DNA of 64,000 nucleotides. It comes from Psychroserpens ponticola. Lineage in GTDB: Bacteria > Bacteroidota > Bacteroidia > Flavobacteriales > Flavobacteriaceae. The notes beneath the pieces are model-generated. The model had not been told where the DNA came from. It saw only the letters and a program-made list of their open reading frames with translations, and made no database searches. The DNA lies in assembly GCF_023556315.2 (NCBI RefSeq), contig NZ_CP116221.1, positions 62,001-126,000 on the forward strand. Reading direction: 5' to 3'. Of this stretch, positions 9,249 through 63,858 are shown piece after piece. Position numbers and translations under genes: made by a program. Each line of letters begins with the position of its first letter. The first letter of the stretch is position 1.

Positions 9249-9308
9249 AGTAAATTTTTAAGCTTCTGCAAGATAGCATATCAATGTTAAATTATCGTTT
9301 CCTTATTA

Positions 9309-9327: not shown

Positions 9328-9405
9328 GTAACATTGAGGTAACTTTTTTATGACTTAGGTTTAACCTCGTATTAACCTTGACTTTACACAACAACAGTTT
9401 CTTTG
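9328..9405 (+). promoter_or_regulatory. six-unit 11-bp repeat array and promoter before the TonB receptor (candidate Pho box)
   Basis: Six units start exactly 11 bases apart at 9328, 9339, 9350, 9361, 9372 and 9383. They begin GTAAC, GTAAC, ATGAC, TTAAC, TTAAC and TTTAC. The last unit starts 15 bases before TTTCTTTGCTGC (9398), a variant of the -7 region. PhoB-type OmpR-family regulators bind 11-bp direct repeats, and the same layout recurs before the porin gene at 14322. Assignment to PhoB is inference. Confidence 0.6.
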
Positions 9406-9427
9406 CTGCAATAAATTAAAACTACTA

Positions 9428-12265
9428 ATGAGAACATTTGTATTACTAACGATTCTGTTTTTTACCACATTTGGATTTGCTCAAAATACTGGGTCTATCG
9501 TAGGGAAATTAATTGATAAAGAATATAACAACGAACCTCTAGCTTTTGGTAACGTTTTAATTAAAGGAACTACTACAGGAACAACATCTGACTTTGATGG
9601 ATTGTATAGTTTTGAAAATTTATCACCAGGAACTTATGTTCTAGTCTTTAGTTTTGTCGGTTACGAATCTCAAGAAATTTCAGTTGATGTTGTAGCTAAT
9701 AAAGCTACCGAAATTAATGTTTCTATGTCTGCAAGTGCAGCCACTTTAGATGAAGTTGTTATAAAAACGACAACACGAAAAGAAAGTGAAACTGCATTGT
9801 TATTAGATCAAAAGAAAGCTATAGAAATAAAACAAAGTATTGGTGCTCAAGAGTTATCGAGAAAAGGAATTAGTAATGCTGCAGGTGCAGTTGCAAAGAT
9901 TTCTGGTGTTTCTAAACAAGAAGGTTCAAGTAATGTGTATGTACGAGGATTAGGTGATAGATATCAAAACACGACGTTTAACGGTTTGTCTTTGCCATCA
10001 AATGATATCAATAAAAAGAATATAGATTTAGATTTGTTTTCATCTGATATTATTGAAAATGTTTCAATAAGTAAGGCATATTCTTCTAGATTTTATGGTG
10101 ATTTCTCAGCTGGTAATGTAGATGTTTCTTCTAAAGATTATAAAGGAAACGGTTTTTTTGATTTCGAAGTTGGATCTACAATTAATTCAAATGCCGCTGG
10201 AGAAAAATTTGTTAAGAGTGAAGGTACAAGTTACTTCGGATTTTATAATAGATATGATAATAATCCATTTGCTGTAGTATTATCACATGGAATTGATCCT
10301 GTTGAAGGATATACTCCAATTGCAGTTAGTTTTAGTGGTTCTTTTGGAAAATCATTCGATTTCAAAAACGGTGAACGATTAAGTATATATGGTACAGGAT
10401 CTTTCAATAATAATTTTGAATATAGAAGAGGTGAAACTACTGACTATACTAATGTGGAGAAAAAATCTTTTGAAGATTCAGAAGAATACGAATATTCTAC
10501 CCAAACCACGGCAATGCTTGGATTAAATTTCAAAGTAGATGGTCAAAATTCATTCAGATTTAATTCTTTATTTATCAATAGTTCCTCTGATAAGGTGGGA
10601 TATTTTGGTATTGATGGTCTAGGCCGAAATAGAGATGCTATTTCAAATACAGATAAAGGGTTTTACCAAATGAATGTTCAATTTAATCAAAATCTTATTT
10701 ATGTAAACCAATTAATGGGTAAGCATAATTTTGAAAAATTAGATGTTGATTGGGCTGTAGGATTTAACGTTGTACAGGCTCATGAGCCAGATAGAAAACG
10801 TGTTAGTATGGAAAATTACGACACAGTTTTTGATAATGACCCTTCAACAAATCCTACATTTTATAGTAATGTAGATTTTGATAACCAACGTTATTTCCAA
10901 AATATTGATGATGAAGAGCTTAATAGTACTCTAAATTTAGCATATACTGCTACTGAGAAAATCAAGTTAAATTTCGGGTATAACGGTAGAGCTAAAGAAC
11001 GTAGTTTTGATAATAATCGTTATGGTTACGATATTATTGGGTCTCAAACACAAGTAGGTAACCCTAATAATTTAAATGCCTTTTTTACTTTAGATAACCT
11101 ACAGATAAATCCTGAGGCAAATGGTTTATATACAGTTAAAGTGTTTAGACCAATCCCAATTTCTGCTGATGGAAACCAAACTTTGGGAACAACAAACAGA
11201 CCTGGTTTAAATGAAAACACATATAAAGGAAATTTAGATGTATATGCAGGTTATTTTAATGCTGAATTAAAAGCAGGTGATAAATGGTTGTTTGTTCCTG
11301 GTGTTCGTGTAGAGTCTTTTACACAAAACATTAATTACGATGTTATAAATCAAGGAAACGATGGTGTTGGGAGTAGGTCTTTTTCTGATGTAGTGTATTT
11401 GCCAAGTTTAAATGTTAAATACAGTTTAACTGAAGATCAGAACTTGCGTTTTTCAGCAAGTCAAACCATTTCACTACCAGAGTTTAAAGAAGTTGCACCA
11501 TTTGTATATGAAGGTGTGTCACAACGAATAGGAGGTAATCCTGATGTATTGGGTTATTCAGAAATTTTAAACTTAGACTTAAAATATGAATGGTTTATAA
11601 GTAAATCTGAAATATTATCTGTAGCCGCTTTCTATAAGCAAATTAATGACCCTATTAATCAGGTTGTTGCATTTGATGCCACTGGAACGCAACGTTTTTT
11701 CAGAACAGGTGACCAAGCTCAAGTAATTGGTTTTGAAGCTGAGGTTAGAAAAAATATTATTATGAACATAGGAGATGACGATGATAAGGCTAAACTTTCT
11801 GTAGGATTAAATGCGACTTACATTCATACTAAACAAGATTTATACGAATCAATCGATGGGGCTTTATTTGATGTAAGTTTTAGAAATGATAGTGAAGAAT
11901 TACAAGGTGCTTCGCCATTCATTATAAACGCTGATATTAATTATTCTCCAACTTTTGGAAATTACAAACCTGCTGCAAACCTTATATTCTCTTATTTCTC
12001 TGATCGGATTGATGCGCTTGGCTCTGGACAATTAGGTAATGTAATCGAAAAAGGATTGCCAAATTTAGATTTTGTACTTCAAAATAAAATATCTGAAAAA
12101 TTTGAAATCAATGTAGCAGCTAGAAACCTTTTAAATCCGACAGTACAATATTTTAGAGAAGGGACTTCAGTAGGTGATGTATTGGTAACCTCTCCTAATG
12201 GTAAAGATGTTACAAATTATGAAAGAGGAATAGATATGTCTGTACAACTTAAATACAAATTTTAA
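9428..12265 (+). CDS. TonB-dependent outer-membrane receptor
   Basis: This is a 945-residue outer-membrane transporter. The signal peptide covers about residues 1-19 (cleavage after FGFAQ). A carboxypeptidase-regulatory-like beta-sandwich follows over about 22-105, then a plug domain over about 120-250 with the VYVRGLGDRYQNTTFNG segment. The long 22-strand barrel ends in Phe (LKYKF). This lay-out is the usual Bacteroidota form. The substrate is not readable from the sequence. It precedes a beta-helix lipoprotein gene by 48 bases and sits in a phosphate-transport block with a shared promoter type, so uptake of a phosphate-containing compound is a reasonable guess. No SusD partner is adjacent. 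Confidence 0.9.
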   Translation: MRTFVLLTILFFTTFGFAQNTGSIVGKLIDKEYNNEPLAFGNVLIKGTTTGTTSDFDGLYSFENLSPGTYVLVFSFVGYESQEISVDVVANKATEINVSMSASAATLDEVVIKTTTRKESETALLLDQKKAIEIKQSIGAQELSRKGISNAAGAVAKISGVSKQEGSSNVYVRGLGDRYQNTTFNGLSLPSNDINKKNIDLDLFSSDIIENVSISKAYSSRFYGDFSAGNVDVSSKDYKGNGFFDFEVGSTINSNAAGEKFVKSEGTSYFGFYNRYDNNPFAVVLSHGIDPVEGYTPIAVSFSGSFGKSFDFKNGERLSIYGTGSFNNNFEYRRGETTDYTNVEKKSFEDSEEYEYSTQTTAMLGLNFKVDGQNSFRFNSLFINSSSDKVGYFGIDGLGRNRDAISNTDKGFYQMNVQFNQNLIYVNQLMGKHNFEKLDVDWAVGFNVVQAHEPDRKRVSMENYDTVFDNDPSTNPTFYSNVDFDNQRYFQNIDDEELNSTLNLAYTATEKIKLNFGYNGRAKERSFDNNRYGYDIIGSQTQVGNPNNLNAFFTLDNLQINPEANGLYTVKVFRPIPISADGNQTLGTTNRPGLNENTYKGNLDVYAGYFNAELKAGDKWLFVPGVRVESFTQNINYDVINQGNDGVGSRSFSDVVYLPSLNVKYSLTEDQNLRFSASQTISLPEFKEVAPFVYEGVSQRIGGNPDVLGYSEILNLDLKYEWFISKSEILSVAAFYKQINDPINQVVAFDATGTQRFFRTGDQAQVIGFEAEVRKNIIMNIGDDDDKAKLSVGLNATYIHTKQDLYESIDGALFDVSFRNDSEELQGASPFIINADINYSPTFGNYKPAANLIFSYFSDRIDALGSGQLGNVIEKGLPNLDFVLQNKISEKFEINVAARNLLNPTVQYFREGTSVGDVLVTSPNGKDVTNYERGIDMSVQLKYKF

Positions 12266-12313
12266 TAATAAACTATAAACGTAAACCAGAACTTTAATTA
12301 AAAAAACAAAAAA

Positions 12314-13513
12314 ATGAAAAATAATTTAATATTAGGATTCGCAATTATCACAATGCTTGCTACTTCTTGTACATCAGATGATACTGCTGATATTATTATC
12401 AATGATAATAGCATTACCAATAACAATGGAGGTAATGGGCTAACAGATCCTGAGACCATTTTCTTATCTGGAACATACACTGCAGATTTAAATTTAGATG
12501 CAAATAATAGCTATGTCGTTAATGGGCCATTAATTATGACTTCAGGAACAACATTAACAATTCCTGCTGGTATGACTATTGAAGCTTTAGCAGCTGGAGC
12601 TAATGTTTATATTGCTATTTCTCAAGGAGCAAGAATTGTAGCAAATGGAACTGCAAATAACCCAATAATATTTACTTCGGATGCATCTTCACCTGCAGCT
12701 GGAGATTGGGGAGGATTAATTTTGTTAGGTAAAGCACCTATTAATTCTGTATCTGGTGCTGCAACAGCTACTTCAGAAATTGCAAGTTTGCCTTATGGAG
12801 GAACATCTGTTTCTGACGACTCAGGAATTTTAAGATATGTACGTGTAGATTACTCTGGAGGAGCAGCAGATGGTCAGTCTGAAAATAACGGATTCTCTTT
12901 TTATGGCGTAGGTAATGGTACATTAATAGAATACATACAAGCTTTCGAAGGTAAAGATGATGGTGTCGAATTTTTTGGAGGAACTGTAAATGCTAGTTTT
13001 GTATCTGTAGTTAATGCTCAAGATGATTCTATTGACTGGACCGAAGGTTTCAGTGGAACAATTACTAATGCTTATGTTAAGCATGGTTCTGAACACGATA
13101 AAGGAATTGAAGCAGATGGATACAATACTGATATTGGAAACAATTCAAATCCTATATTCTTTTCAAAGCCAACTGTAAATAACTTAGCAATCTACGGAAA
13201 TGGTTCAGGAACTGGTAATGAAGCGATACGTTTAAGAGCTGGGTCGCAAGGTGTTTTTACAAACGTTTATATTGAAGGTTTTGAAGAAGGTTTTGATTTA
13301 GATGGTGATGCTGGATCAGGAAGTTCAAATCCAACAGGAACAGGAGTTCTTAATGGAGACTTAAGTGTAACTGATGTAACTTTTACAGATGTTATTTTAA
13401 TCCTGAAAAATGATACAGGTGAGACGTTTGCTGAAACAGATTTTATTTCTGGTGTAGGAAATGGCGTAGCTACAGATTATGCAACTTGGGGAGCAGGTTG
13501 GACAAACCAATAA
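12314..13513 (+). CDS. beta-helix surface lipoprotein
   Basis: This is a 399-residue predicted lipoprotein. The lipobox is ATSC-T at about residue 19, followed by an Asp/Asn-rich linker. The rest is rich in Gly, Ser, Thr and Asn with short repeating strands (for example GDWGGLILLGKAP and GKDDGVEFFGG). This pattern fits a right-handed parallel beta-helix. Acid residues after the Cys are compatible with export to the cell surface in Bacteroidota. Because it follows the TonB receptor in the same direction by 48 bases and ends at a terminator, the two are likely one transcript and may work together at the outer membrane. The exact function is unknown. Confidence 0.75.
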   Translation: MKNNLILGFAIITMLATSCTSDDTADIIINDNSITNNNGGNGLTDPETIFLSGTYTADLNLDANNSYVVNGPLIMTSGTTLTIPAGMTIEALAAGANVYIAISQGARIVANGTANNPIIFTSDASSPAAGDWGGLILLGKAPINSVSGAATATSEIASLPYGGTSVSDDSGILRYVRVDYSGGAADGQSENNGFSFYGVGNGTLIEYIQAFEGKDDGVEFFGGTVNASFVSVVNAQDDSIDWTEGFSGTITNAYVKHGSEHDKGIEADGYNTDIGNNSNPIFFSKPTVNNLAIYGNGSGTGNEAIRLRAGSQGVFTNVYIEGFEEGFDLDGDAGSGSSNPTGTGVLNGDLSVTDVTFTDVILILKNDTGETFAETDFISGVGNGVATDYATWGAGWTNQ

Positions 13514-13531
13514 ATAGTTAGTCTATTGTAT

Positions 13532-13563
13532 AAAAAAAGCATCCAATTTGGATGCTTTTTTTT
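13532..13563. terminator. bidirectional terminator
   Basis: GCATCCAA / TTGGATGC is flanked by seven A residues on the left and eight T residues on the right. It therefore works for the lipoprotein gene (+) and for the convergent MORN-type gene (-). Confidence 0.85.
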
Positions 13564-13576
13564 ATGTCTGTAATTC

Positions 13577-13936
13577 TTAATTACGAATAGCAACAGATGT
13601 TTTGTTGTCCCATTCAGTAACACTTGTAATAGTATTACTTGTATAATCTACTTCTTTTAAAGTGGTGTTATTCCAATAAAACCACTTGCCGACTTTTTTC
13701 CCATTATCATAATTCGCCGATATACTCTTTTTACCATCAGTATCATAACTTAACCATTCACCTTGTAATTTACCATCTAAAGTATAAGTTCCTGTTTGAC
13801 TTATAACTCCATTGTCATGATAATACGTTACATCAATTAAATTGGTGTCTTTGTTAAGTTCTAATTTTCTCTCTTGCTGAGCAAAAGAAACCACACTGAT
13901 TAATAAAACGAATAAAAGCAATACTTTTTTGTTCAT
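13577..13936 (-). CDS. secreted YwqK/MORN-2-like repeat protein
   Basis: This is a 119-residue exported protein. The signal peptide ends at about residue 19 (VVSFAQ). The mature part carries MORN-2/YwqK-type repeats, visible as YHDNGVISQTGTYTLDGKLQGEW and YDNGKKVGKWFYW (each cut short here). Such repeats are widespread in Bacteroidota; database labels call them toxin-antitoxin related, which is not supported by anything visible here. The gene converges on the beta-helix lipoprotein gene and uses the shared terminator. Its own promoter region lies in the 385-base gap that follows. Confidence 0.75.
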   Translation of the reverse strand: MNKKVLLLFVLLISVVSFAQQERKLELNKDTNLIDVTYYHDNGVISQTGTYTLDGKLQGEWLSYDTDGKKSISANYDNGKKVGKWFYWNNTTLKEVDYTSNTITSVTEWDNKTSVAIRN

Positions 13937-14135
13937 AATTATGGGTTTTAAATTTATTTAATACACAAATATAAAGATTACATGATATTTAAGCAACAAT
14001 TAATTAACATTAATTTTACATTAAAGCTATAATGCATTGTTTGTTAGTTAGTTAATTATGTTTGTTGTGTGTAGAAATCTTAATAATTAATTAATACTAA
14101 GATTACAATGTAGTTATACTGCTGAAATACATTTG

Positions 14136-14238
14136 TTCTTGTCTTATAAGACATATTAGTTTCGTATAATCTATTAGTTTTTGTCGACTAATTATCATGA
14201 ATTCTAATGACTGCCTTTGGCCAAGGCAGTTTTTTTTC
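14136..14238 (+). ncRNA. candidate small RNA (orphan promoter-terminator pair)
   Basis: A perfect -7 element TACATTTG at 14128-14135 is followed by about 75 bases without a start codon in a useful frame and then by a strong terminator. No plus-strand gene upstream needs this terminator, because the lipoprotein gene already ends at 13532-13563. A transcript of about 95-100 nt is predicted. No known RNA family is recognised and no -33 TTG is visible, so this is only a candidate. Confidence 0.35.
14210..14238 (+). terminator. orphan intrinsic terminator
   Basis: An 8-bp stem (ACTGCCTT / AAGGCAGT) with a TGGCC loop is followed by eight T residues. There is no annotated plus-strand gene directly upstream. 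Confidence 0.85.
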
Positions 14239-14251
14239 TTTCATTTTAAAT

Positions 14252-14296
14252 TTAATGTTAAGGAAACATTAAGTTAACACTAGTTTTGGTTCTTTG
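14252..14296 (+). promoter_or_regulatory. three-unit 11-bp repeat array and promoter before the porin (candidate Pho box)
   Basis: Three units start 11 bases apart at 14252, 14263 and 14274: TTAATGTTAAG, GAAACATTAAG and TTAACACTAGT. The middle unit matches unit GTAACATTGAG of the receptor promoter in 9 of 11 bases. The last unit starts 15 bases before GTTCTTTGCAGC (14289), the same distance and nearly the same sequence as at 9398. An alternative perfect -7, TAGTTTTG, lies at 14281-14288. Confidence 0.6.
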
Positions 14297-14321
14297 CAGC
14301 GACAAAAACTAGTACCTTATA

Positions 14322-15524
14322 ATGAAATATAATTTAATTATTGCACTTGTATTGTGCACAATTATTTCTTCAAAAGCCCAAGAAATTAGTGATACTTCAT
14401 TTGGTAAAGGAATGATCAATTTTGTAGCAAAAGACAGCTCATTTAGTGTGAAATTTGCTCCTCGTTTTCAAGTACGTTCTGTGTCCTCATGGGATCATGA
14501 TGGAGATAAATATGGAAGTCCAGAACATAATTTTATTGTAAGAAGAGCACGATTGAAGTTTAGCGGTTTTGCGTATTCAACAAAACTTAAATATAAAGTT
14601 GAGTTAGGATTGTCTAACAGAGACATCTCTGGTGCAAACGACTTTAATAGAAACACACCACGTTACATTTTAGATGCTGTTGTTATGTGGAATTTCGCAG
14701 AAAATTTTGAACTTTGGGCAGGACAAACTAAATTACCTGGCAATGTGGAACGCGTTGTGTCTTCTGCAAATCTTCAGTTGATTGATCGCTCACTTTTAAA
14801 TAGTCGATTTAATATTGATCGTGATTTAGGTGTTCAATTACATCATAAAACTAAATTGGGATCTAATTTTTTAATGCGTGAAAAATTATCAGTGTCACAA
14901 GGAGAAGGTCGTAATGTTTCTGAAGGAAATGAAGGTGGACTTCAATATACAGGTCGTTTGGAATTTTTGCCTTTCGGAACATTTAAATCGAAAGGCGATT
15001 TTAGTCAATCGGATTTAAAACGTGAAGCAACACCAAAATTGATGCTAGGGTTTACATATAATTATAATCAAGATGCGGTCAGAGAGCAAGGATTTTCAGG
15101 CGATTATATGATACGAACAGATGGCTCAATATATGAAACTGATCAAACTACTATTTTTGCTGATGCCATGTTTAAATATAAAGGGTTCTCATTTATGGGA
15201 GAATATGCTAATCGTACAGCTGGAGATGAAATTGCTACAGAAATAGATGGAACCACACCAACAGGTGATATTGTGTTAACAGGTAATGCTGTTAACTTAC
15301 AAGTGGGTTATTTATTTAAAAGTAATTATGAAATTGCTGCTCGTTTTACAACTTTAGATTTTAAAAATGTGACTGGTGCTTTGCCAATAGAGCAATATAC
15401 ACTTGGTCTCAATAGATTTGTAGTTGGTCATAAATTAAAAATTCAGTCTGATATAAGTTATACAAGTATTGATGGTAATGATGCTAGAATCACTTTTCGA
15501 CTAGGTTTTGATATTCATTTTTAA
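14322..15524 (+). CDS. phosphate-selective porin (OprO/OprP family)
   Basis: This is a 400-residue outer-membrane barrel. The signal peptide ends near residue 19 (IISSKAQ). The RRARLKFSG motif and the paired strands that follow are typical of the OprO/OprP phosphate/polyphosphate porin family, and the chain ends in a Phe (FDIHF). It would pass phosphate into the periplasm. It lies 68 bases before the PiT transporter in the same direction, so a two-gene outer-to-inner-membrane phosphate operon is likely. The upstream 11-bp repeat array fits phosphate-starvation control. Selectivity for phosphate is inferred from family and context. Confidence 0.88.
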   Translation: MKYNLIIALVLCTIISSKAQEISDTSFGKGMINFVAKDSSFSVKFAPRFQVRSVSSWDHDGDKYGSPEHNFIVRRARLKFSGFAYSTKLKYKVELGLSNRDISGANDFNRNTPRYILDAVVMWNFAENFELWAGQTKLPGNVERVVSSANLQLIDRSLLNSRFNIDRDLGVQLHHKTKLGSNFLMREKLSVSQGEGRNVSEGNEGGLQYTGRLEFLPFGTFKSKGDFSQSDLKREATPKLMLGFTYNYNQDAVREQGFSGDYMIRTDGSIYETDQTTIFADAMFKYKGFSFMGEYANRTAGDEIATEIDGTTPTGDIVLTGNAVNLQVGYLFKSNYEIAARFTTLDFKNVTGALPIEQYTLGLNRFVVGHKLKIQSDISYTSIDGNDARITFRLGFDIHF

Positions 15525-15592
15525 AAGATAACAATTAGATAACACAAGTGTTTTAAACACTATAGATATTTGCAAACGATTTAAATTAAATT

Positions 15593-17929
15593 ATGGAAAA
15601 TATATATTTATATATGATTATTGCCTTAGCCATTTTAGCTATTGCTGATTTGGTTGTAGGTGTTAGTAACGATGCAGTAAATTTCTTGAATTCTGCAATT
15701 GGTTCTAAAGCCATTTCATTTAAAACTATTATGATAGTTGCTAGTCTAGGAGTTGCTGTTGGCGCAGTGTTTTCTAGTGGAATGATGGAAGTAGCACGTA
15801 AAGGGATTTTTAATCCAAGTGAGTTTATGTTTAATGAAATCATGATTATTTTCATGGCAGTAATGATAACAGACATATTACTACTTGACTTCTTTAATTC
15901 CGTTGGAATGCCTACATCTACAACAGTGTCTATTGTTTTCGAATTATTAGGTGCAGCTGTTGCAATGGCGTTAATAAAAATTGGTCATGATGGCGGGAAC
16001 TTTGACGAAGTTATCAATTATATAAATACATCAAAAGCATCCCAAATTATATTTGGGATACTGCTCTCCGTCATTGTTGCATTCTCTATAGGTGCATTAG
16101 TACAATGGGTGTCTAGATTACTTTTGTCTTATAATTTTGAAAATAAAGCACATTGGGTTGGTGCGTTATTTGGAGGATTTGCTTTGACAGCAATAACTTA
16201 TTTTATTTTCATGAAAGGCCTAAAAGGAACGTCCTATGCTAAAGAATCTTTTGATATTCTTGGAGGTGGTACTATGAAAGATTTTCTAGAAACACAAGTG
16301 CTATCAATAGTCCTAGTAAGTTCAGTATTTTGGTCTTTATTGTCTTATGTTTTAATAGCTTTTGCAAAAACGAACATTTACAAGCTAATTATTATTGTCG
16401 GTACTTTTGCTTTGGCTTTAGCTTTTGCAGGAAATGATTTGGTTAACTTTATAGGTGTGCCTGTTGCTGCTTATAATGCTTTTCTAGAATGGTCCGCTTC
16501 AGGTGTTTTAGCAACTGAATTCCCGATGGATATCTTAGCTGAAAAAGTACCAACAAACAACTGGTTATTATTTGGAGCAGGAATGGTTATGGTTTTAACT
16601 TTGTGGTTTTCAACAAAAGCAAAAGGTGTCGTAAAAACATCTTTAGATTTATCTAGCCAAGGAGAAACGCAAGAACGTTTTCAGCCCAACTGGCTATCTA
16701 GAGGTTTTGTGAGATCAGCAATGTTAATGTCGCAAATGTCATCTTATATGCTGCCTAAATCATGGCAAGCAAAAATTGAAAAACAATTTGAAACACCTGT
16801 GATTCCTCTTTCTAAAGATAAGGTATATGAATTACCAGCATTTGACTTAGTACGCGCTGCTGTAAATTTGATGGTAGCCGCAGTATTGATTTCTATAGCA
16901 ACATCTTATAAATTACCATTATCTACAACTTATGTCACCTTCATGGTGGCAATGGGAACTTCTCTAGCAGATAGAGCTTGGGGAGCTGAAAGTGCTGTGT
17001 ATAGAGTTGCTGGTGTATTAAATGTTATTGGAGGATGGTTTTTTACTGCATTTAGCGCGTTTACAGCAGCTGCTTTAGTAGCATATCTATTGAACTTAAA
17101 TTTAGATGTTATGTTTCCAATTTTATTGGTTACAGCTTTTGGGTTGTTAATTAGAAGCTCTATAGCACATAATAAAAAGGCTAAAGAAGTTAAAGCAGAA
17201 GATTCTTTGACTAGAGCAGAAAGTAGTTCTGTACAAGGAGTGATTCATGAAAGTGCAAATAACATTGCCAATGTAGTGAAGCGTACAAATAGAATTTACT
17301 CTAATGCAATTGTTGGACTTGCTAGACAGGATTTAGCATTACTCAAAAAGAGTAAGAAACAAGTTGTTAAGTTAACGGCAGAGGTAGATGATTTACGAGA
17401 TAATGTGTTTTATTTTATTAAAAATTTAGATGAGTCTAGTGTTGATGCTAGTGATTTCTATATCAATATTCTTGGTTATCTTCAAGATATGACACAGTCG
17501 TTAGAATACATTTCTAAAGTAAGTCATAAACACGTTAATAATAATCATAAGAAACTTAAATTCAGTCAAATTAAAGAACTTAAAGAGGTTGATGATAAGT
17601 TAGAAGTTTTATTTGAAGACACAAGAGCTGCATTTAACTCTGAATCTTTTGAACAAATAGGTGCTATTTTAGATGAAAGAACGGAAGTTTATAAACTTGT
17701 AAAAGAAAAAATTAAAAGACAAGTAGCTCGTACTCGTACTGAAGAATCAAGCCCTAAGAATACGACATTGTATTTCAGTATGCTTTTAGAGACTAAGGAT
17801 TTAATTAAAGCTACAATGAATTTGCTAGAAGAGTATCATAACTCTTTTGATAGTTCTGTTGAACCTGCAACTATTACAGTTGTAGATGAAATTATTGAAA
17901 ACCCAGAGTCTTCAGAGCAAGAAGAATAA
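15593..17929 (+). CDS. PiT-family inorganic phosphate transporter with PhoU-like C-terminal domain
   Basis: This is a 778-residue inner-membrane protein, much longer than a basic PiT (about 500). The two inverted PiT repeats carry GVSNDAVNFLNSAIGSKA near the N terminus and AGNDLVNFIGVPVAA in the middle. From about residue 540 a soluble, charged, helical region resembles a PhoU/DUF47 domain (for example ESANNIANVVKRTNRIYSNA). A fused PhoU-like domain suggests transport is gated by phosphate status. It follows the porin gene and ends at a perfect terminator. The energy source (H+ or Na+) cannot be read. Confidence 0.92.
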   Translation: MENIYLYMIIALAILAIADLVVGVSNDAVNFLNSAIGSKAISFKTIMIVASLGVAVGAVFSSGMMEVARKGIFNPSEFMFNEIMIIFMAVMITDILLLDFFNSVGMPTSTTVSIVFELLGAAVAMALIKIGHDGGNFDEVINYINTSKASQIIFGILLSVIVAFSIGALVQWVSRLLLSYNFENKAHWVGALFGGFALTAITYFIFMKGLKGTSYAKESFDILGGGTMKDFLETQVLSIVLVSSVFWSLLSYVLIAFAKTNIYKLIIIVGTFALALAFAGNDLVNFIGVPVAAYNAFLEWSASGVLATEFPMDILAEKVPTNNWLLFGAGMVMVLTLWFSTKAKGVVKTSLDLSSQGETQERFQPNWLSRGFVRSAMLMSQMSSYMLPKSWQAKIEKQFETPVIPLSKDKVYELPAFDLVRAAVNLMVAAVLISIATSYKLPLSTTYVTFMVAMGTSLADRAWGAESAVYRVAGVLNVIGGWFFTAFSAFTAAALVAYLLNLNLDVMFPILLVTAFGLLIRSSIAHNKKAKEVKAEDSLTRAESSSVQGVIHESANNIANVVKRTNRIYSNAIVGLARQDLALLKKSKKQVVKLTAEVDDLRDNVFYFIKNLDESSVDASDFYINILGYLQDMTQSLEYISKVSHKHVNNNHKKLKFSQIKELKEVDDKLEVLFEDTRAAFNSESFEQIGAILDERTEVYKLVKEKIKRQVARTRTEESSPKNTTLYFSMLLETKDLIKATMNLLEEYHNSFDSSVEPATITVVDEIIENPESSEQEE

Positions 17930-19808: not shown

Positions 19809-21569
19809 CTAATTACCATTGTCTAATAAGGTGTCTTTCTTTCCATACAGCAACTCTGCAACTTCAATTAATTTTTTAACCATATCATTAACGTTGGTAT
19901 AATCATTAAATAGGGAAGATGCCATTTCAGCAGAAATTAAATTTTCTCTGATTAATTTGTCAATGGATTTATTACTCTGTCTAATATTCTCTTTTGCTTC
20001 ATTCTTTAATTGGAGTAGTTTTTTTGCATATACTTCAGAATCTTCAGCTTTTCTGAATAAATAAATAATACGTAATACTTTGATGATTTTTTTTCTAAAG
20101 CCATCATATTCTTTCAACATATGCTTATTATCTAAATCTAAAGACATGGTAATGTTTTTATTTAGTTCTCTAGCATCTTTAATGATTTCAACCATTTTAC
20201 GATTCGCCACTTTAATATCAGTAATCGCTTCATTTTCTTTTCTATTAAGTTTAAAATCATTTTGTGCAGTTATTGCATATTTAATAATTTCACCATAAAT
20301 AGTTTTAACTTTTTTATAGTAGAGGTCTTCTACGTTTGTTTGTAAATCTTTGGTAGATTTTTTTAAAATCTTTTTTACTTTTTTATCAGATTTAATATCT
20401 TCTCTATGAATGTTTAAAGCATGGGCAACTATTTCAAAAATGGTGTTTTTATATAAATATTTTGATTCATTTATCAAGGCCGAAATTACCGAAGCTGGAA
20501 ATTTTAAAACTGCATTATTAAGATATTTTGGTTCATCAATATCTTTATCTTTATGGTCTTTGAAGAATTTTAATAACGCACGTTCTAATGGTTTTATAAA
20601 TGGAATCATGATAATAACACCAAGTATATTAAAGATGGTATGAAACAATGCTAATTTCAAAGTATAGTCTGTTGAGCTAATGTTTGTAAATTTAGATATG
20701 TTATTAACTAAATTTGCTAATGGATAAATTAAAGCTAAAGCCGCAATTCCAGTAAAAACATTGAAGATTAAATGTGCTCCAGCTAATCTTTTTCCAGCCA
20801 CATTAGAACTTAACGATCCCAAAACAGCTGTAATGGTTGTACCAATGTTTGCTCCAATTGCTAAAGCTAAGGCATTTTCATATTCTATTTGACCTGCTGC
20901 TAATGCAGTTAATATTAATGCTAATGTTGCACTACTTGATTGTAAAACTGTTGTTATTACTATTCCTAATAGTGTATAGATTATTACACCTTTAAATCCT
21001 GATATGGCGTATTGGGTTAAATCTATATATTCTTTAAAAATGTCAAAGCCTTCTTTCATAAAATGAATGCCTAAAAAGAAGAATCCTAAGCCAGCCAAAA
21101 CATTTCCAATGCCTTTTAATGAGGCTTTTTTCTGGATTGAAAAAATAATTCCAAAAACCAACATTGGCATTGACAATGCAGAAATATTAATTTTTAAACC
21201 AAATCCTGCGACCAACCAGGCTGTAGCTGTAGTTCCAATGTTTGCTCCAAAGATTAGACCTATTCCTCCAGATAAGCTTATAAGTCCTGCGCTTATAAAT
21301 GAAATTGTGATGACTGACACTAAGGAGCTTGATTGAATCAAAGCTGTTACTAGTGCTCCTGCGGTAATACTTTTGTATAATTTGTCTGTCGTTTTTTTTA
21401 ATAAATTTTGTAAAGGACCTTTTGTGAAAACTTTAAATCCTTCTTCTAGCATAATCATCCCAAAAAGTAAGATGGCAATACCAGCTGCTATCGTTTTGAA
21501 ATTTGGGTATAAATAAAGTAGAATTGCAAGAACAATTAAAAGCGCAAAGAATATCGTTTTTCTAATCAT
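19809..21569 (-). CDS. Na+/phosphate cotransporter (NptA/PNaS family) with PhoU-like tail
   Basis: This is a 586-residue inner-membrane protein. It contains two PNaS repeats, each with a QSSS motif (ALIQSSSLVSV and VLQSSSATLAL) and each near a GANIGTT motif. From about residue 340 a soluble alpha-helical PhoU-like region extends to the C terminus. It moves phosphate into the cell with sodium. Together with the PiT transporter, it is the second phosphate transporter here with a PhoU-like tail. The upstream 364 bases show a pair of TTGCAA hexamers 11 bases apart but not the array seen before the porin. Confidence 0.9.
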   Translation of the reverse strand: MIRKTIFFALLIVLAILLYLYPNFKTIAAGIAILLFGMIMLEEGFKVFTKGPLQNLLKKTTDKLYKSITAGALVTALIQSSSLVSVITISFISAGLISLSGGIGLIFGANIGTTATAWLVAGFGLKINISALSMPMLVFGIIFSIQKKASLKGIGNVLAGLGFFFLGIHFMKEGFDIFKEYIDLTQYAISGFKGVIIYTLLGIVITTVLQSSSATLALILTALAAGQIEYENALALAIGANIGTTITAVLGSLSSNVAGKRLAGAHLIFNVFTGIAALALIYPLANLVNNISKFTNISSTDYTLKLALFHTIFNILGVIIMIPFIKPLERALLKFFKDHKDKDIDEPKYLNNAVLKFPASVISALINESKYLYKNTIFEIVAHALNIHREDIKSDKKVKKILKKSTKDLQTNVEDLYYKKVKTIYGEIIKYAITAQNDFKLNRKENEAITDIKVANRKMVEIIKDARELNKNITMSLDLDNKHMLKEYDGFRKKIIKVLRIIYLFRKAEDSEVYAKKLLQLKNEAKENIRQSNKSIDKLIRENLISAEMASSLFNDYTNVNDMVKKLIEVAELLYGKKDTLLDNGN

Positions 21570-26322: not shown

Positions 26323-27057
26323 ATGATAAAAGCTGTAATAGTAGATGATGAACCAAAGGCTATCCAAAGTTTATCTTGGGAGTTATCTAACTTTAGTAGT
26401 GATATTGAAGTTATTAAGACGTTCTCTAATCCTGAGAAGGCGATAACTTATCTAAATGCCAACACTCCAGATTGCTTGTTTTTAGATATACAAATGCCAA
26501 CAATGGATGGTTTTCAGTTTCTAGGAAAACTAGCAAACAAAGATTTTGCTGTGGTAATTACTACTGCTTATGACGAATATGCAATTAAAGCATTAAAACA
26601 TGAGGCTATTGATTATTTATTAAAGCCAATAGATTCTGATGATCTAGAAGCGACCATTCAAAAAATTAAGAAGTACAATTTTAGAGCTTTAAATGTTTTA
26701 AAGGTTGAAGAAGTGTTGACTAATTTTAATGGTAAATTGGATAAAAAACGAATTACAATTAATACTGATGGGAAACTAATTTTTTTGAGTATTGATGATA
26801 TTCTTTATGTGGAATCAGATGGTAATTACAGCACTATTATTCTTGAAAACGCTCCAAAAATAGTTGTTACGAAAAAATTAAAAGAAATTGATGCTATTTT
26901 ACCTGATCATTGTTTTTTTAGAATACATAATTCTTATGTCATTAACCTTAATAAAATAAAAGAATTTATTAAGAGTGAAGGTTATGTTGTGATGCAGTCT
27001 AATCATAAAATTCCTGTAGCGAGACAGCGAAAATCAGATTTTTTAGAGAAATTATAG
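26323..27057 (+). CDS. LytTR-family response regulator
   Basis: This is a 244-residue two-component regulator. The receiver domain (about 1-120) has the acidic pair DDE, the phosphoacceptor Asp55 in LFLDIQMP, and the K of LLKPID. The LytTR DNA-binding domain (about 140-244) carries DILYVESDGNYS and FFRIHNSYVINLNKI, both typical. It directly precedes its likely partner kinase in one operon. Two AGTTGGT repeats upstream could be its own binding sites. Target genes cannot be predicted. Confidence 0.93.
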   Translation: MIKAVIVDDEPKAIQSLSWELSNFSSDIEVIKTFSNPEKAITYLNANTPDCLFLDIQMPTMDGFQFLGKLANKDFAVVITTAYDEYAIKALKHEAIDYLLKPIDSDDLEATIQKIKKYNFRALNVLKVEEVLTNFNGKLDKKRITINTDGKLIFLSIDDILYVESDGNYSTIILENAPKIVVTKKLKEIDAILPDHCFFRIHNSYVINLNKIKEFIKSEGYVVMQSNHKIPVARQRKSDFLEKL

Positions 27058-27100
27058 AGTGAGTTATCTTCAAAACATATGCTTAACCGTTGTTGTCAAA

Positions 27101-29050
27101 ATGAAATTAGTATTTGTTTTGACCTTCTGCTTTATTTTATGTTTAGGTCTTCAAGCTCAGGATAATTTGAAGTCTGATTTTGAGTTACAATTAGAATCTA
27201 TCATAACAACTAAACCTAGAGATTTTGAAATATTAGATTCTATCTTTTCAGAATTTGAAAGAGACACCATAAAGATGAATGCTTTAATTCAAAAGTCTAG
27301 AGCGTTTAACTATCTAGAAGGTGAAAGTTTTGCATTAAATAATTTAGGTGTGTTTTATAGAAATAATTCACATTATGAAAGCGCCATAAATGTCCATAAA
27401 AAAGCAAATGCTTTGGCAGTTGAGGTCAATAATCTAGAATTAAGAGTTATTAACCTTAATAATATTGGAGTTGTTTATCGAAGGATGGATCTTGTAAAAC
27501 CTGCACTTGATTTTCATACAAAAGCACTTGATATTGCTAGATCAATAGATGAGCCTTCAAAAGAAATAAAATATAATATTGCTGTGTCTCAAAATAGTAT
27601 TGGTAATATTTATTTGGTGTTAGAACAGTATGAATTGGCCAAACGACAGTTTCAAAAATCGCTCTCAATTGAAAAAGAATCAGGTAATAAGTTAGGCTTG
27701 GCTATCAACTATCAAAATATAGGGTTTACTTATGAAGCTCAAGGAGAATTAGAGGAGGCTCTAAACAATTATGAGCGATCATTAGATTATAATAATCAAA
27801 TAGACTCAGAGCTTGGGCGTGTTATTTGTTACAATAGCATTGGAAAAGTATATATCCAACAAGAGAAATTTAGCGCAGCTAAAACTAGTATTGAAAAAGC
27901 TTTAGAAAAGGCCTTGAAAATTGGTGATCAGTTTTATATTTCTTCCTCATATATTAATTTGGGATGGGCTCAAAAACACTTAGGTTTGAATGATTTGTCT
28001 GAAACCAATCTAAAAAGAGGATTAGATGTTGCAAAAAAATACAGTTTAAAATTATCGATTGTTGAAGCTCAAAAGCATTTGTCAGATTTGTATGAAATGA
28101 CCAATAAGCCTAGCTTAGCTTTAAATGCATATAGAGACGCTATTGCATTAGAAAAAACAATTGCTAACGACCGTAATTTGCGATATGTTAATGATGTTAT
28201 TATTCAATATGAAAATGAAGCAAAGAATAACCAAATTAAGGCTTTAGCTGATGAAAATGAAATTGTAAAATCTAGATTAGAGCGCAATAAGAAGTTCTTT
28301 TGGTACTCTATACTAGCTTTTTTAATTATTGGAGCAATTTTGTTTTCGCTTTATAGAAACAGGCAATTGCAACAAGAAAAACAAATCCTGACTCTTGAAC
28401 AAGACATGCTGCGCAGTCAGATGAATCCACATTTTATTTTTAATTCACTTAATTCTATCAAGCTTTATATTATTAATAATGAAAAAGAAAATGCAGTTTA
28501 TTATTTGAATAAGTTTTCAAAATTTATCAGAAAAATTTTAGTTGCTTCTACTGAAAAAGAAATTTCTTTAGAAGATGAATTAGCCACGATGAAACTGTAT
28601 ATGAATATTGAAAATATTAGGTTTTCAAACGAAATAAGCTTTGATGTATATGTTGAAGACAATATCAATACTGCAAGTATAAAAGTGCCATCAATGATTT
28701 TGCAACCTTTTCTAGAAAATGCACTTTGGCATGGTTTGTCATCTAAAAAGGAAGATGATAAAAAAATTAAACTTAATGTATCTCAAACAAATGCAGAATT
28801 TGTTACTATTTGTATTGAAGATAATGGGATTGGAAGAATACGTTCAGCTGAAATTAATAAAGGTAAATTGTTGAAACGGAAGTCAGTTGGTATCTCTTTA
28901 ACTAAGGCTAGATTGGCTAATTTTTCAAAAGATTTCACATATGATTATCAAATACGTATTGAAGATCTATACGATACGAACCAAAATGCTATTGGGACCA
29001 AAATCATTGTTGATATTCCTGTACATATAATAGCAAAAAGAACCGCTTAA
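27101..29050 (+). CDS. TPR-containing LytS/YehU-type sensor histidine kinase
   Basis: This is a 649-residue membrane sensor. The signal peptide ends near residue 20 (LGLQAQ). A periplasmic TPR array follows over about 60-370, with repeats such as NNLGVFYRNNSHYESAINVH. One transmembrane helix lies at about 405-425, then a coiled linker and the His_kinase domain with QMNPHFIFNSLNS. His444 is the likely phospho-acceptor. The C-terminal HATPase is seen as ENALWHGL and EDNGIG. A GTG start at 27059 would add 14 residues before the signal peptide, so the ATG at 27101 is preferred. It pairs with the LytTR regulator just upstream. Confidence 0.92.
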   Translation: MKLVFVLTFCFILCLGLQAQDNLKSDFELQLESIITTKPRDFEILDSIFSEFERDTIKMNALIQKSRAFNYLEGESFALNNLGVFYRNNSHYESAINVHKKANALAVEVNNLELRVINLNNIGVVYRRMDLVKPALDFHTKALDIARSIDEPSKEIKYNIAVSQNSIGNIYLVLEQYELAKRQFQKSLSIEKESGNKLGLAINYQNIGFTYEAQGELEEALNNYERSLDYNNQIDSELGRVICYNSIGKVYIQQEKFSAAKTSIEKALEKALKIGDQFYISSSYINLGWAQKHLGLNDLSETNLKRGLDVAKKYSLKLSIVEAQKHLSDLYEMTNKPSLALNAYRDAIALEKTIANDRNLRYVNDVIIQYENEAKNNQIKALADENEIVKSRLERNKKFFWYSILAFLIIGAILFSLYRNRQLQQEKQILTLEQDMLRSQMNPHFIFNSLNSIKLYIINNEKENAVYYLNKFSKFIRKILVASTEKEISLEDELATMKLYMNIENIRFSNEISFDVYVEDNINTASIKVPSMILQPFLENALWHGLSSKKEDDKKIKLNVSQTNAEFVTICIEDNGIGRIRSAEINKGKLLKRKSVGISLTKARLANFSKDFTYDYQIRIEDLYDTNQNAIGTKIIVDIPVHIIAKRTA

Positions 29051-61905: not shown

Positions 61906-63858
61906 ATGAGTGAATTAAAACTTTCAGATTGGTTGCCTACCACAAACAAAGAGGTTAAAATACGCGGTTGGGACGAACTAGACGTTATTTTGTTTAGTGG
62001 AGACGCTTATGTGGATCATCCAACGTTTGGTCCTGCTGTAATTGGACGTTTACTAGAAAGTTTTGGTTTGCGTGTTGCAATTGTTCCGCAACCTAGTGTG
62101 ACAGATAATCTTCAGGATTTTGTTAAGCTTGGTGCTCCGAAGTTGTTTTTTGGAGTTACAGGTGGTTGTATGGATCCTATGATTAGTAACTACAATGCGA
62201 ATAAAAAACGTCGTGATAAAGATGCTTATACGCCAAATGGAGATATTGGATTTCGTCCAGATTATGCTACCACAGTGTATTCTAAAATTCTAAAAGAAAA
62301 ATGGCCAGATGTTCCTGTGCTACTTGGTGGAATTGAAGCGTCATTGCGTCGTGTGACACATTATGATTATTGGAGTGATGCGTTGATGCCAAGCATTTTA
62401 GAAAGTTCTAAAGCTGATATGTTGGTATACGGAATGGGAGAACAACCCTTGAAAGAAGTGGTGCGTTTGATGCAGAAAGGGGTTCCGTTTTCTAGCATTA
62501 CGACGATTAAGCAAACAGCAGTGCTTTTAAATAAAGATGCTAAAATTCCTAAGAATAGTAATTGGGAAGATGTTGAAATCGCATCGCATGAAATTTGTTT
62601 AGAGGATAAGAAAAAATACGCGTCTAACTTTAAAGTTATTGAGCAGGAATCAAATAAGTTAGCAGCACGACGAATTTTTCAAAACGTAGGCGATAAGACG
62701 TTGATGATAAATCCGCCTTATCCAACCATGACCGAAGATGAAATTGATGCGTCATTCGAGTTGCCTTACACACGATTACCACATCCAAAATATAATAAGC
62801 GAGGACCAATTCCTGCGTTTGAAATGATTAAGTTTTCAATCAACATACATCGTGGTTGTTTTGGTGGTTGTAGTTTTTGTACGATCTCTGCACATCAAGG
62901 GAAATTTATAGCGTCTAGAAGTCAGGAATCTATTTTAAGAGAAGTCGATACAGTCGCAAATATGCCAGACTTTAAAGGGTATTTGTCTGATATTGGTGGA
63001 CCAAGTGCCAACATGTATAAGATGAAAGGAAAAGTACAATCTATCTGCGACAAATGTGTGGCTCCTAGTTGTATTTCACCAGTGATATGCAGTAATTTGG
63101 ATACGTCTCACAAACCTTTAACCGAATTATATAAAGCGGTTGATAGTCACCCAAAAGTGAAGAAATCGTTTATAGGTTCTGGAATTCGTCACGATATGTT
63201 AGTTCCAGAATTTAATAAAAATGCAGATCCCAAAGAGTTAGACGATTACACAGAAGAAGTGATGACCAAACATGTGTCTGGACGACTTAAAGTTGCGCCA
63301 GAGCACACGAGTGATCCTGTGTTGAAATTGATGAGAAAGCCTTCGTTTAAATACTTCCATAAGTTTAAGGAACGCTTTGATAAGATTAATGTCGCTAAAG
63401 GTTTAAAACTGCAATTAATCCCCTACTTTATTTCTAACCATCCTGCTTGCGAAGTGGAGGATATGGCAAATCTAGCTGCCGAAACAAAAGATATGGGTTT
63501 CCAGTTAGAGCAAGTGCAAGGCTTTACACCAACACCTATGACTGTAGCTACTGTGATTTATTATAGTGGTTACCATCCTTACACGCTTAAAAAAGTAAAC
63601 ACACCTATAACACGCAAAGAAAAAGATGAGCAACATCGTTTTTTCTTTTGGTATAAGGACGAAAATAAGGCGTGGATTAAAAAGACCTTAAACAAACTTG
63701 GTCGTCAAGATTTATTAGACGTATTGCTTCCTGAAAAAGACGAAAAATGGCGTAAAAATAAGCCAAGTGGTGAGGCGAAACATACGTTTGATGATGCGGT
63801 TCCTTTTAATCAGCGGAAGACTAAGGCTAAGTTTAAGTCTAAGAAGAGGAGGAGATAA
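61906..63858 (+). CDS. YgiQ-family radical SAM protein
   Basis: This is a 650-residue radical SAM enzyme. The N-terminal region (about 1-290) is the YgiQ-specific domain. The cluster motif is HRGCFGGCSFC (CxxxCxxC; about 318-325). A C-terminal DUF3362-like region ends in a Lys/Arg-rich tail. A second group of Cys lies in CDKCVAPSC (about 385-393). The reaction is unknown. The gene stands alone with its own -7 element. Confidence 0.9.
   Translation: MSELKLSDWLPTTNKEVKIRGWDELDVILFSGDAYVDHPTFGPAVIGRLLESFGLRVAIVPQPSVTDNLQDFVKLGAPKLFFGVTGGCMDPMISNYNANKKRRDKDAYTPNGDIGFRPDYATTVYSKILKEKWPDVPVLLGGIEASLRRVTHYDYWSDALMPSILESSKADMLVYGMGEQPLKEVVRLMQKGVPFSSITTIKQTAVLLNKDAKIPKNSNWEDVEIASHEICLEDKKKYASNFKVIEQESNKLAARRIFQNVGDKTLMINPPYPTMTEDEIDASFELPYTRLPHPKYNKRGPIPAFEMIKFSINIHRGCFGGCSFCTISAHQGKFIASRSQESILREVDTVANMPDFKGYLSDIGGPSANMYKMKGKVQSICDKCVAPSCISPVICSNLDTSHKPLTELYKAVDSHPKVKKSFIGSGIRHDMLVPEFNKNADPKELDDYTEEVMTKHVSGRLKVAPEHTSDPVLKLMRKPSFKYFHKFKERFDKINVAKGLKLQLIPYFISNHPACEVEDMANLAAETKDMGFQLEQVQGFTPTPMTVATVIYYSGYHPYTLKKVNTPITRKEKDEQHRFFFWYKDENKAWIKKTLNKLGRQDLLDVLLPEKDEKWRKNKPSGEAKHTFDDAVPFNQRKTKAKFKSKKRRR

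Follow-up and report, generated by a model that had tools for sequence, protein, structure and literature searches.

The 64,000-nucleotide stretch analysed here (the window) covers positions 62,001 to 126,000 of contig NZ_CP116221.1 of Psychroserpens ponticola (G000:C1:62001-126000), within a single-contig genome of 4.03 Mb. In it, two promoters carry arrays of short direct repeats at a period of 11 bp. The first array precedes the gene of a TonB-dependent receptor (TBDT), which is directly followed by a lipoprotein-like protein that we name FII by its position; the second precedes a porin gene, itself followed by a PiT-type phosphate transporter. A preliminary description of this DNA had read the arrays as a flavobacterial Pho box, the site of a PhoB-type regulator. 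Among the matches listed, the closest named relative of the TBDT is that of Psychroserpens jangbogonensis (89% identity). The features are collected in Table 1.

Table 1. Promoter elements and genes of the window, with the candidate regulator encoded elsewhere in the genome
Feature	Position	Strand	Remarks
Array of six direct 11-bp repeats (TTAAC type) in the TBDT promoter, proposed to bind PhoB	9328..9393	+	
TBDT promoter, -7 element TTTCTTTG (degenerate)	9398..9405	+	without the TA of TAnnTTTG
Array of three 11-bp units in the porin promoter	14252..14284	+	
Porin promoter, -7 element GTTCTTTG (degenerate)	14289..14296	+	
Weaker two-unit box and -7-like GATATTTG directly before PiT	15517..15576	+	matrix 13.2 bits; R1 E 0.5 (15518-15574)
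Two-unit box GAAAC/TTAAC and TATCTTGC box before the divergent HD-domain gene	9268..9302	-	R1 E 3.4
MORN gene promoter with inverted array and -7 element TATATTTG (13966-13973)	13966..14025	-	
TonB-dependent receptor (TBDT), carboxypeptidase-regulatory-like N-terminal domain	9428..12265	+	PF00593, PF13715, PF07715
FII, 399-aa lipoprotein-like protein directly 3' of the TBDT	12314..13513	+	no Pfam match
Small protein with MORN-like repeats	13577..13936	-	MORN_2 match under cut-off; signal-peptide-like N-terminus by eye
Porin_O_P family porin	14322..15524	+	PF07396
PiT-type phosphate transporter (PHO4)	15593..17929	+	PF01384
Na/Pi cotransporter	19809..21569		
PhoB-type response regulator	G000:C1:3421328-3422005	-	two best NCBIfam matches are PhoB models

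Geometry of the arrays

Upstream of the TBDT, six units start at 9328, 9339, 9350, 9361, 9372 and 9383, and all six fit the pattern nTnAC, just as the preliminary description had it. Its claim that the porin units behave alike holds for the period, which is exactly 11 bp across TTAAT (14252), GAAAC (14263) and TTAAC (14274), but not for the pattern, which is strictly fitted by the third unit alone. Recounting returned the 9 of 11 identical bases that it gave for units GTAACATTGAG and GAAACATTAAG, as well as the 15 bp that it placed, in both promoters, between the start of the last unit and a near-identical common block; the two blocks, TTTCTTTGCTGC (at 9398) and GTTCTTTGCAGC (at 14289), match at 10 of 12 positions. 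The phosphate-type porin and PiT transporter that it saw nearby are likewise supported by Pfam matches (PF07396 and PF01384). New with respect to that description are the inverted array at the small MORN gene, the two-unit boxes at PiT and at the HD-domain gene, and the identity of the common block as a -7 element.

A pattern selected post hoc from 64 kb could have arisen by chance. We simulated 64 kb 100 times with a first-order Markov model and scored both strands: the longest period-11 nTnAC run was 2 or 3 and never more, against 6 observed, and the best six-unit TTAAC score did not exceed 23, against 25 observed. In the real window, the other periods from 8 to 15 give nTnAC runs of 2-3. 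The array also recurs in relatives (see below), as chance would not predict, and we regard a chance origin as practically negligible.

Conservation upstream of TBDT relatives

Conservation was followed in 81 loci of Flavobacteriaceae, that is the best 80 of 106 confirmed TBDT-relative loci together with the window. Upstream of the TBDT, a three-unit TTAAC score of at least 13 out of 15 is reached at period 11 in 35 of the 81; periods 6-10 and 12-15 give none and period 16 gives one. When the promoters are anchored on TTTG and a good unit is defined by at least 4 of the 5 letters of TTAAC, the six phase positions hold good units in 73, 63, 6, 61, 77 and 51 loci. At least four of the six positions are filled in 66 of the 81 loci (window included), and moving the phase by 1-5 bp either way leaves 0-3 such loci. 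The third position is the weakest; TTAC is found there in 19 of the 81. Thus, the TBDT promoter usually has six phased positions, though some units are weak, and the window's array cannot be called unusually long, as the preliminary description had done.

The -7 element

The common block represents a weak -7 core element and lies outside the repeat itself. The flavobacterial -7 consensus is TAnnTTTG (PMC9723704); TTTCTTTG and GTTCTTTG sit where it would stand, both without its TA. When promoters are anchored by the array alone, 2 of 81 TBDT promoters and 0 of 31 porin promoters possess this TA. In both classes AAC stands at -17 and -28 from TTTG and then at further 11-bp steps. A degenerate core, combined with an array that would take the place of the -33 element, resembles what is expected of an activator-dependent promoter. 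As an observation apart, the leader after the porin -7 box (14297-14321 and its counterparts in relatives) contains GACAAAAACT in 29 of 31 loci.

Which neighbouring genes carry the array

Among the 81 loci, a porin match occurs in 31, a PiT match in 48 and an FII homologue in 77. Porin upstream regions score at least 12 at period 11 in 22 of 31 cases (0-3 at other periods), and the porin promoter has the same geometry as that of the TBDT in most of the 30 relatives. In loci without a porin match, AAC-N8-AAC lies within 130 bp upstream of 16 of 20 PiT genes; it is absent from that interval in the remaining four (L064, L087, L104 and L105).

The 81 loci supplied 1172 upstream regions, on which a matrix built from TBDT and porin promoters was then scored. 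At a threshold of at least 12, it picks out 16 of 48 PiT genes, 3 of 55 HD genes and 4 of 793 other genes, the latter being two Porin_O_P genes, one outer-membrane barrel and one gene without annotation. None of the upstream regions of DXS (0/48), lipoprotein (0/77) or Na/Pi (0/5) genes reaches this threshold. Its recall in the classes on which it was trained (TBDT 87/115, porin 30/31) is circular.

These figures bear on the idea that the period stems from intrinsic DNA bending or a UP-like A/T-rich element and not from a protein operator. The region is in fact A/T-rich and the period close to the helical repeat. However, what is conserved is AAC, repeated at exact 11-bp steps, and not A-tracts; periods 10 and 12 give nothing upstream of the TBDT, and the matrix test picks out 4 of the 793 upstream regions of other genes, which makes such an origin very improbable. 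The repeat before these outer-membrane transporter genes is a real and widely conserved regulatory site.

The divergent HD-domain gene is a case of its own. Its TATCTTGC-type box is kept widely, and its two units are kept in some near relatives only. TATCTTGC at 9268-9275 (- strand) fits the F. psychrophilum SM5 motif TAnnTTGY (PMC9723704), which occurs in 49 of 53 HD homologue upstream regions, with TATCTTGC itself in 37 of 53. This conservation suggests that an alternative sigma factor may act at the HD gene.

Profile scans of genomes

The bare pattern TTAACN6TTAACN6TTAAC with two mismatches was tried on the own genome and gave 37 matches, against 75 for the same pattern written backwards; it is therefore useless genome-wide and was replaced by a profile. 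This profile, R1, has 60 columns and was built from 62 of 127 anchored promoter sequences, the window's own sequences being excluded. In the own genome, R1 ranks the porin promoter first (E 2.7e-11) and the TBDT promoter second (E 8.9e-8), all others lying above 1e-3. Because R1 was built from orthologous promoters, this ranking speaks for specificity and is not an independent discovery. The next match (1.1e-3) overlaps the porin site on the opposite strand. Six lower-ranked matches were placed among genes, with stretches L154-L158 (of 14) left out: five fall within genes or face away from the gene start next to them, and the one before an Nfu/NifU gene was taken as chance.

Across the family (60 genomes of 59 genera, E of at most 0.01, stricter filters), R1 found 145 matches in 50 genomes. 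In 8 of the 60 (G001, G006, G018, G021, G030, G037, G047 and G056) a match lies 82-194 bp from the start of phoB, divergent every time, where our own arithmetic expects about 0.02. Downstream of these eight matches are four TBDTs, two FII-like lipoproteins and two other genes. Downstream genes were checked for 59 of the 145 matches (53 stretches) and comprise 15 TBDTs, 8 porins, 5 lipoproteins and 7 PiT genes, some of the PiT and porin genes so counted sitting hundreds of bases off; the remaining 24 matches have another gene or none. One of these 24 lies 12 bp before the gene of a calcineurin-like phosphoesterase (L223, G039:C44:26100-32100), which might be a PlcP-type lipid-remodelling enzyme.

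In a sample of the phylum, 24 of 118 genomes have an R1 match at E of at most 1e-3. This sample added five phoB-TBDT cases within the family, four of them from one genus. In another family match, the gene that follows encodes an Endonuclease_1 protein with additional fn3 and LTD domains, the EndA domain set. Outside the family, 17 matches were found in 15 genomes of 11 genera; 11 of them, four coming from a single genus, precede Porin_O_P-like, PstS-like (PBP_like_2), Na/Pi or PhoU_div genes. The rest comprise one ABC permease, which could be a PstC, one TBDT and four matches without a phosphate-type gene. The preliminary description had proposed a matrix scan for phosphate genes as a check, and the outcome was favourable: within the family, matches are enriched at porin, TBDT, PiT, lipoprotein and phoB-divergent promoters, and outside it at PstS-like, Na/Pi, PhoU-like and porin genes.

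A candidate regulator

The own genome has four Trans_reg_C genes. For one of them the PhoB-type models come out best (Table 1); the gene after it encodes a PhoR/PnpS-like kinase, and a GT28 glycosyltransferase adjoins. A structure-sequence search with this regulator returned MtrA, RegX3 and similar proteins, and a close relative is present in 142 of 149 family genomes and, in another set, in 310 of 317 near-complete ones. RprY is the best match of the three other genes. Separately, the window itself encodes, at 26323-29050, a LytTR response regulator and then a TPR histidine kinase.

If PhoB binds the arrays, genomes that lack phoB might also lack arrays. Among genomes at least 90% complete with a readable upstream region, AAC-N8-AAC occurs upstream of PiT in 10 of 19 phoB-bearing and 0 of 6 phoB-lacking genomes (p 0.028); G308 and G365 offered no usable upstream region and G150 no PiT match. 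In G388 the unit pair lies at -155, outside promoter distance. R1 matches occur in 7 of 16 phoB-bearing and 1 of 8 phoB-lacking genomes (p 0.14), and at least two of these seven (G275 and G284) represent the MORN element described below. Of two pairs of sister genera, g24/g116 differ as PhoB predicts, and g128/g276 are arrayless with or without phoB. Taken together, this comparison leans towards PhoB without proving it; the adjacency to phoB and the gene classes weigh more.

The arrays could also be bound by another OmpR-family regulator, for example an RprY-like one, with the phosphate genes being targeted for some other reason such as envelope stress. Three RprY-best genes are in fact at hand, 11-bp direct repeats are common for the OmpR family, and the co-loss signal fades to p 0.19 once incomplete genomes are included. 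The Riemerella anatipestifer PhoP motif was compared by its authors to the E. coli ArcA motif (PMC9603813). On the other hand, 8 of 60 genomes have an R1 match next to phoB, matches in other families occur at PstS-like, Na/Pi and PhoU-like genes, and the one weak own-genome match near an RprY-like pair is on the strand opposite to the RprY-like genes. We consider this alternative unlikely.

A model for phosphate-dependent activation

To explain these results we propose, with a probability of roughly 0.86, that the arrays are TTAAC-type Pho boxes, predicted to be bound by PhoB, which raise the expression of the transporters under phosphate starvation. Arrays that keep their phase across relatives, stand at a fixed distance from the -7 element, mark particular genes and adjoin phoB in some genomes are the observations; PhoB binding, the number of dimers, activation and the cargo of the TBDT are what we infer from them. 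Most likely, a phosphate-sensing protein switches these transporter genes on when phosphate is exhausted. In such a scheme, starvation would lead a PhoR-type kinase to phosphorylate a PhoB-type response regulator, whose dimers would bind head-to-tail on consecutive 11-bp TTAAC units along one face of the helix. With the array ending 4 bp upstream of the degenerate -7 element, PhoB would replace the -33 contact and recruit the sigma-A polymerase. Six units (three dimers) would drive the TBDT and the lipoprotein, and three units the porin and, with the help of PiT's own weaker box, PiT; a joint rise in the uptake of organic phosphorus and phosphate might result. The array thereby offers a reason for a possible joint induction of the TBDT, porin and PiT genes. 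The Pho box reading of the preliminary description is backed by the period, the phase, the enrichment at phosphate genes and the adjacency to phoB, its link to PhoB being inferred.

Several observations weigh against this model. The regulator falls below both PhoB equivalog cut-offs (219.8 vs 296.2; 214.8 vs 270), and inspection of the own genome revealed no clear array upstream of its phoB. The own-genome scan yields two strong promoters only, both targets whose orthologues entered R1. The TBDTs adjacent to phoB are 33-56% identical to that of the window and, TBDTs being a large family, are not necessarily orthologues. For 24 of the 59 checked matches the downstream gene is not a TBDT, porin, FII or PiT gene, or is missing; among them are four aspS cases (which belong to the MORN element), one metallophosphoesterase, GAPDH, MscL and an exoribonuclease. 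Among phoB-lacking genomes, G048 and G147 (82% and 73% complete) keep the array, and it is their inclusion that gives the p of 0.19; G146 has a near-match (9/10) at one of its two PiT copies, and G365 (96% complete, 160 contigs) has an R1 match. Finally, the phoBR operon of F. johnsoniae includes an OprP gene that was uninduced at low phosphate (fold change -1.3, p 0.25; PMC8115612).

An inverted array at the MORN gene

R1 also matches 13995-14028, about 330 bp upstream of the porin, and this match belongs to the divergent MORN-like gene, whose promoter carries the array in inverted orientation. On the + strand its units read GCAAC, TTAAC and TTTAC, the fourth being degenerate in the window. 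Upstream of MORN homologues, an inverted four-unit score of at least 17 is reached at period 11 in 15 of 71 regions and at the other periods from 8 to 14 in none. Anchored on TAnnTTTG, TGTT or TGTA stands at -51, -40, -29 and -18 in 51, 46, 24 and 29 of 61 regions; GTT therefore falls at -50, -39, -28 and -17, the same register as the forward AAC. Among the 71, the -7 box has its TA in 58 of 63 array-anchored promoters. Elsewhere the MORN gene adjoins aspS with the same inverted element. R1 matches before aspS in four genomes had been considered as a non-phosphate target, and this candidate was dropped because the divergent MORN gene there carries the inverted element.

A search for the MORN gene in 16 phoB-bearing and 8 phoB-lacking genomes, with a strong match being one better than 1e-15, found it in 6 of the former and, in five of these six, within 2 kb of PiT (G060, G046, G275 and G284) or phoB (G025). 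The phoB-lacking genomes have no strong match (0/8, p 0.06, not significant), and two of them have weaker ones.

Repression would be compatible with an operator that lies inverted over a consensus core. We tentatively envision, with rather more doubt than confidence, that one phased Pho array serves as an orientation switch in Flavobacteriaceae: in forward orientation over a degenerate -7 element it would activate uptake genes, and inverted over the consensus TAnnTTTG it would repress a small, probably secreted MORN protein at low phosphate. At this gene we are guessing at repression, at the identity of the regulator and at what the protein does. Inverted arrays would form an additional class that can be tested.

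Comparison with known phosphate systems

In Escherichia coli the Pho box array is located in the -35 region, and Riemerella anatipestifer is a member of the Flavobacteriales. The Bacillus subtilis PhoP box consists of TTAACA-type repeats at about 11 bp, with opposite-strand repeats at the repressed tag promoters.

A parallel in gene content is the PhoBR regulon of F. johnsoniae, which likewise has a TBDT followed by a lipoprotein, a GT28 gene beside phoBR and an EndA-type nuclease (PMC8115612). At low phosphate, the TBDT and lipoprotein of its phoBR operon (Fjoh_0545 and Fjoh_0546) have fold changes of 8.02 and 9.91 (Table 1 of that study; its text gives log2), and the EndA-type nucleases 4.66 and 4.13; the domain set Endonuclease_1, fn3 and LTD is listed there for EndA1/EndA2 (PMC8115612). 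Judged by arrangement, the F. johnsoniae counterparts of the window's genes would thus be induced by phosphate starvation (PMC8115612); the likeness of FII to Fjoh_0546 is one of gene arrangement, drawn without sequence comparison. The window differs in that its TBDT-porin-PiT block lies away from phoBR.

As far as we could consult it, the F. johnsoniae study gives no binding motif, and the word 'motif' is missing from its main text (PMC8115612). Putative Pho boxes near plcP have been mentioned, without sequence, in marine bacteria (PMC4796936). We found no defined Pho box or array for Bacteroidota in the open-licence literature that we searched, most subscription journals being outside this scope. 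With its fixed spacing to the -7 element, the phased TTAAC array would provide a usable matrix for predicting Bacteroidota phosphate regulons.

In Riemerella, DNA affinity purification sequencing (DAP-seq) of PhoP gave TTTAACA as the most conserved bases, a core like that of the window's arrays; a phased array or a phosphate regulon is absent from the account as far as we could consult it (PMC9603813). The PhoB (SphR) box of Synechocystis has three tandem repeats with a TTAA core, and mutating any of them lowers binding (PMC11126600); repeats and core are thus shared with the window, whereas phylum, promoter type and targets differ. By definition, a Pho box consists of two 11-nt direct repeats whose letters are species-specific; in E. 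coli, PhoB binds such tandem repeats head-to-tail (PMC4415409). The window's arrays share with the E. coli box the tandem 11-nt direct repeats (PMC4415409). They differ in their core, which is TTAAC(A) and not the CTGTCAT of the E. coli type, in their Bacteroidota -7 box, and in the conserved six-unit form at one gene.

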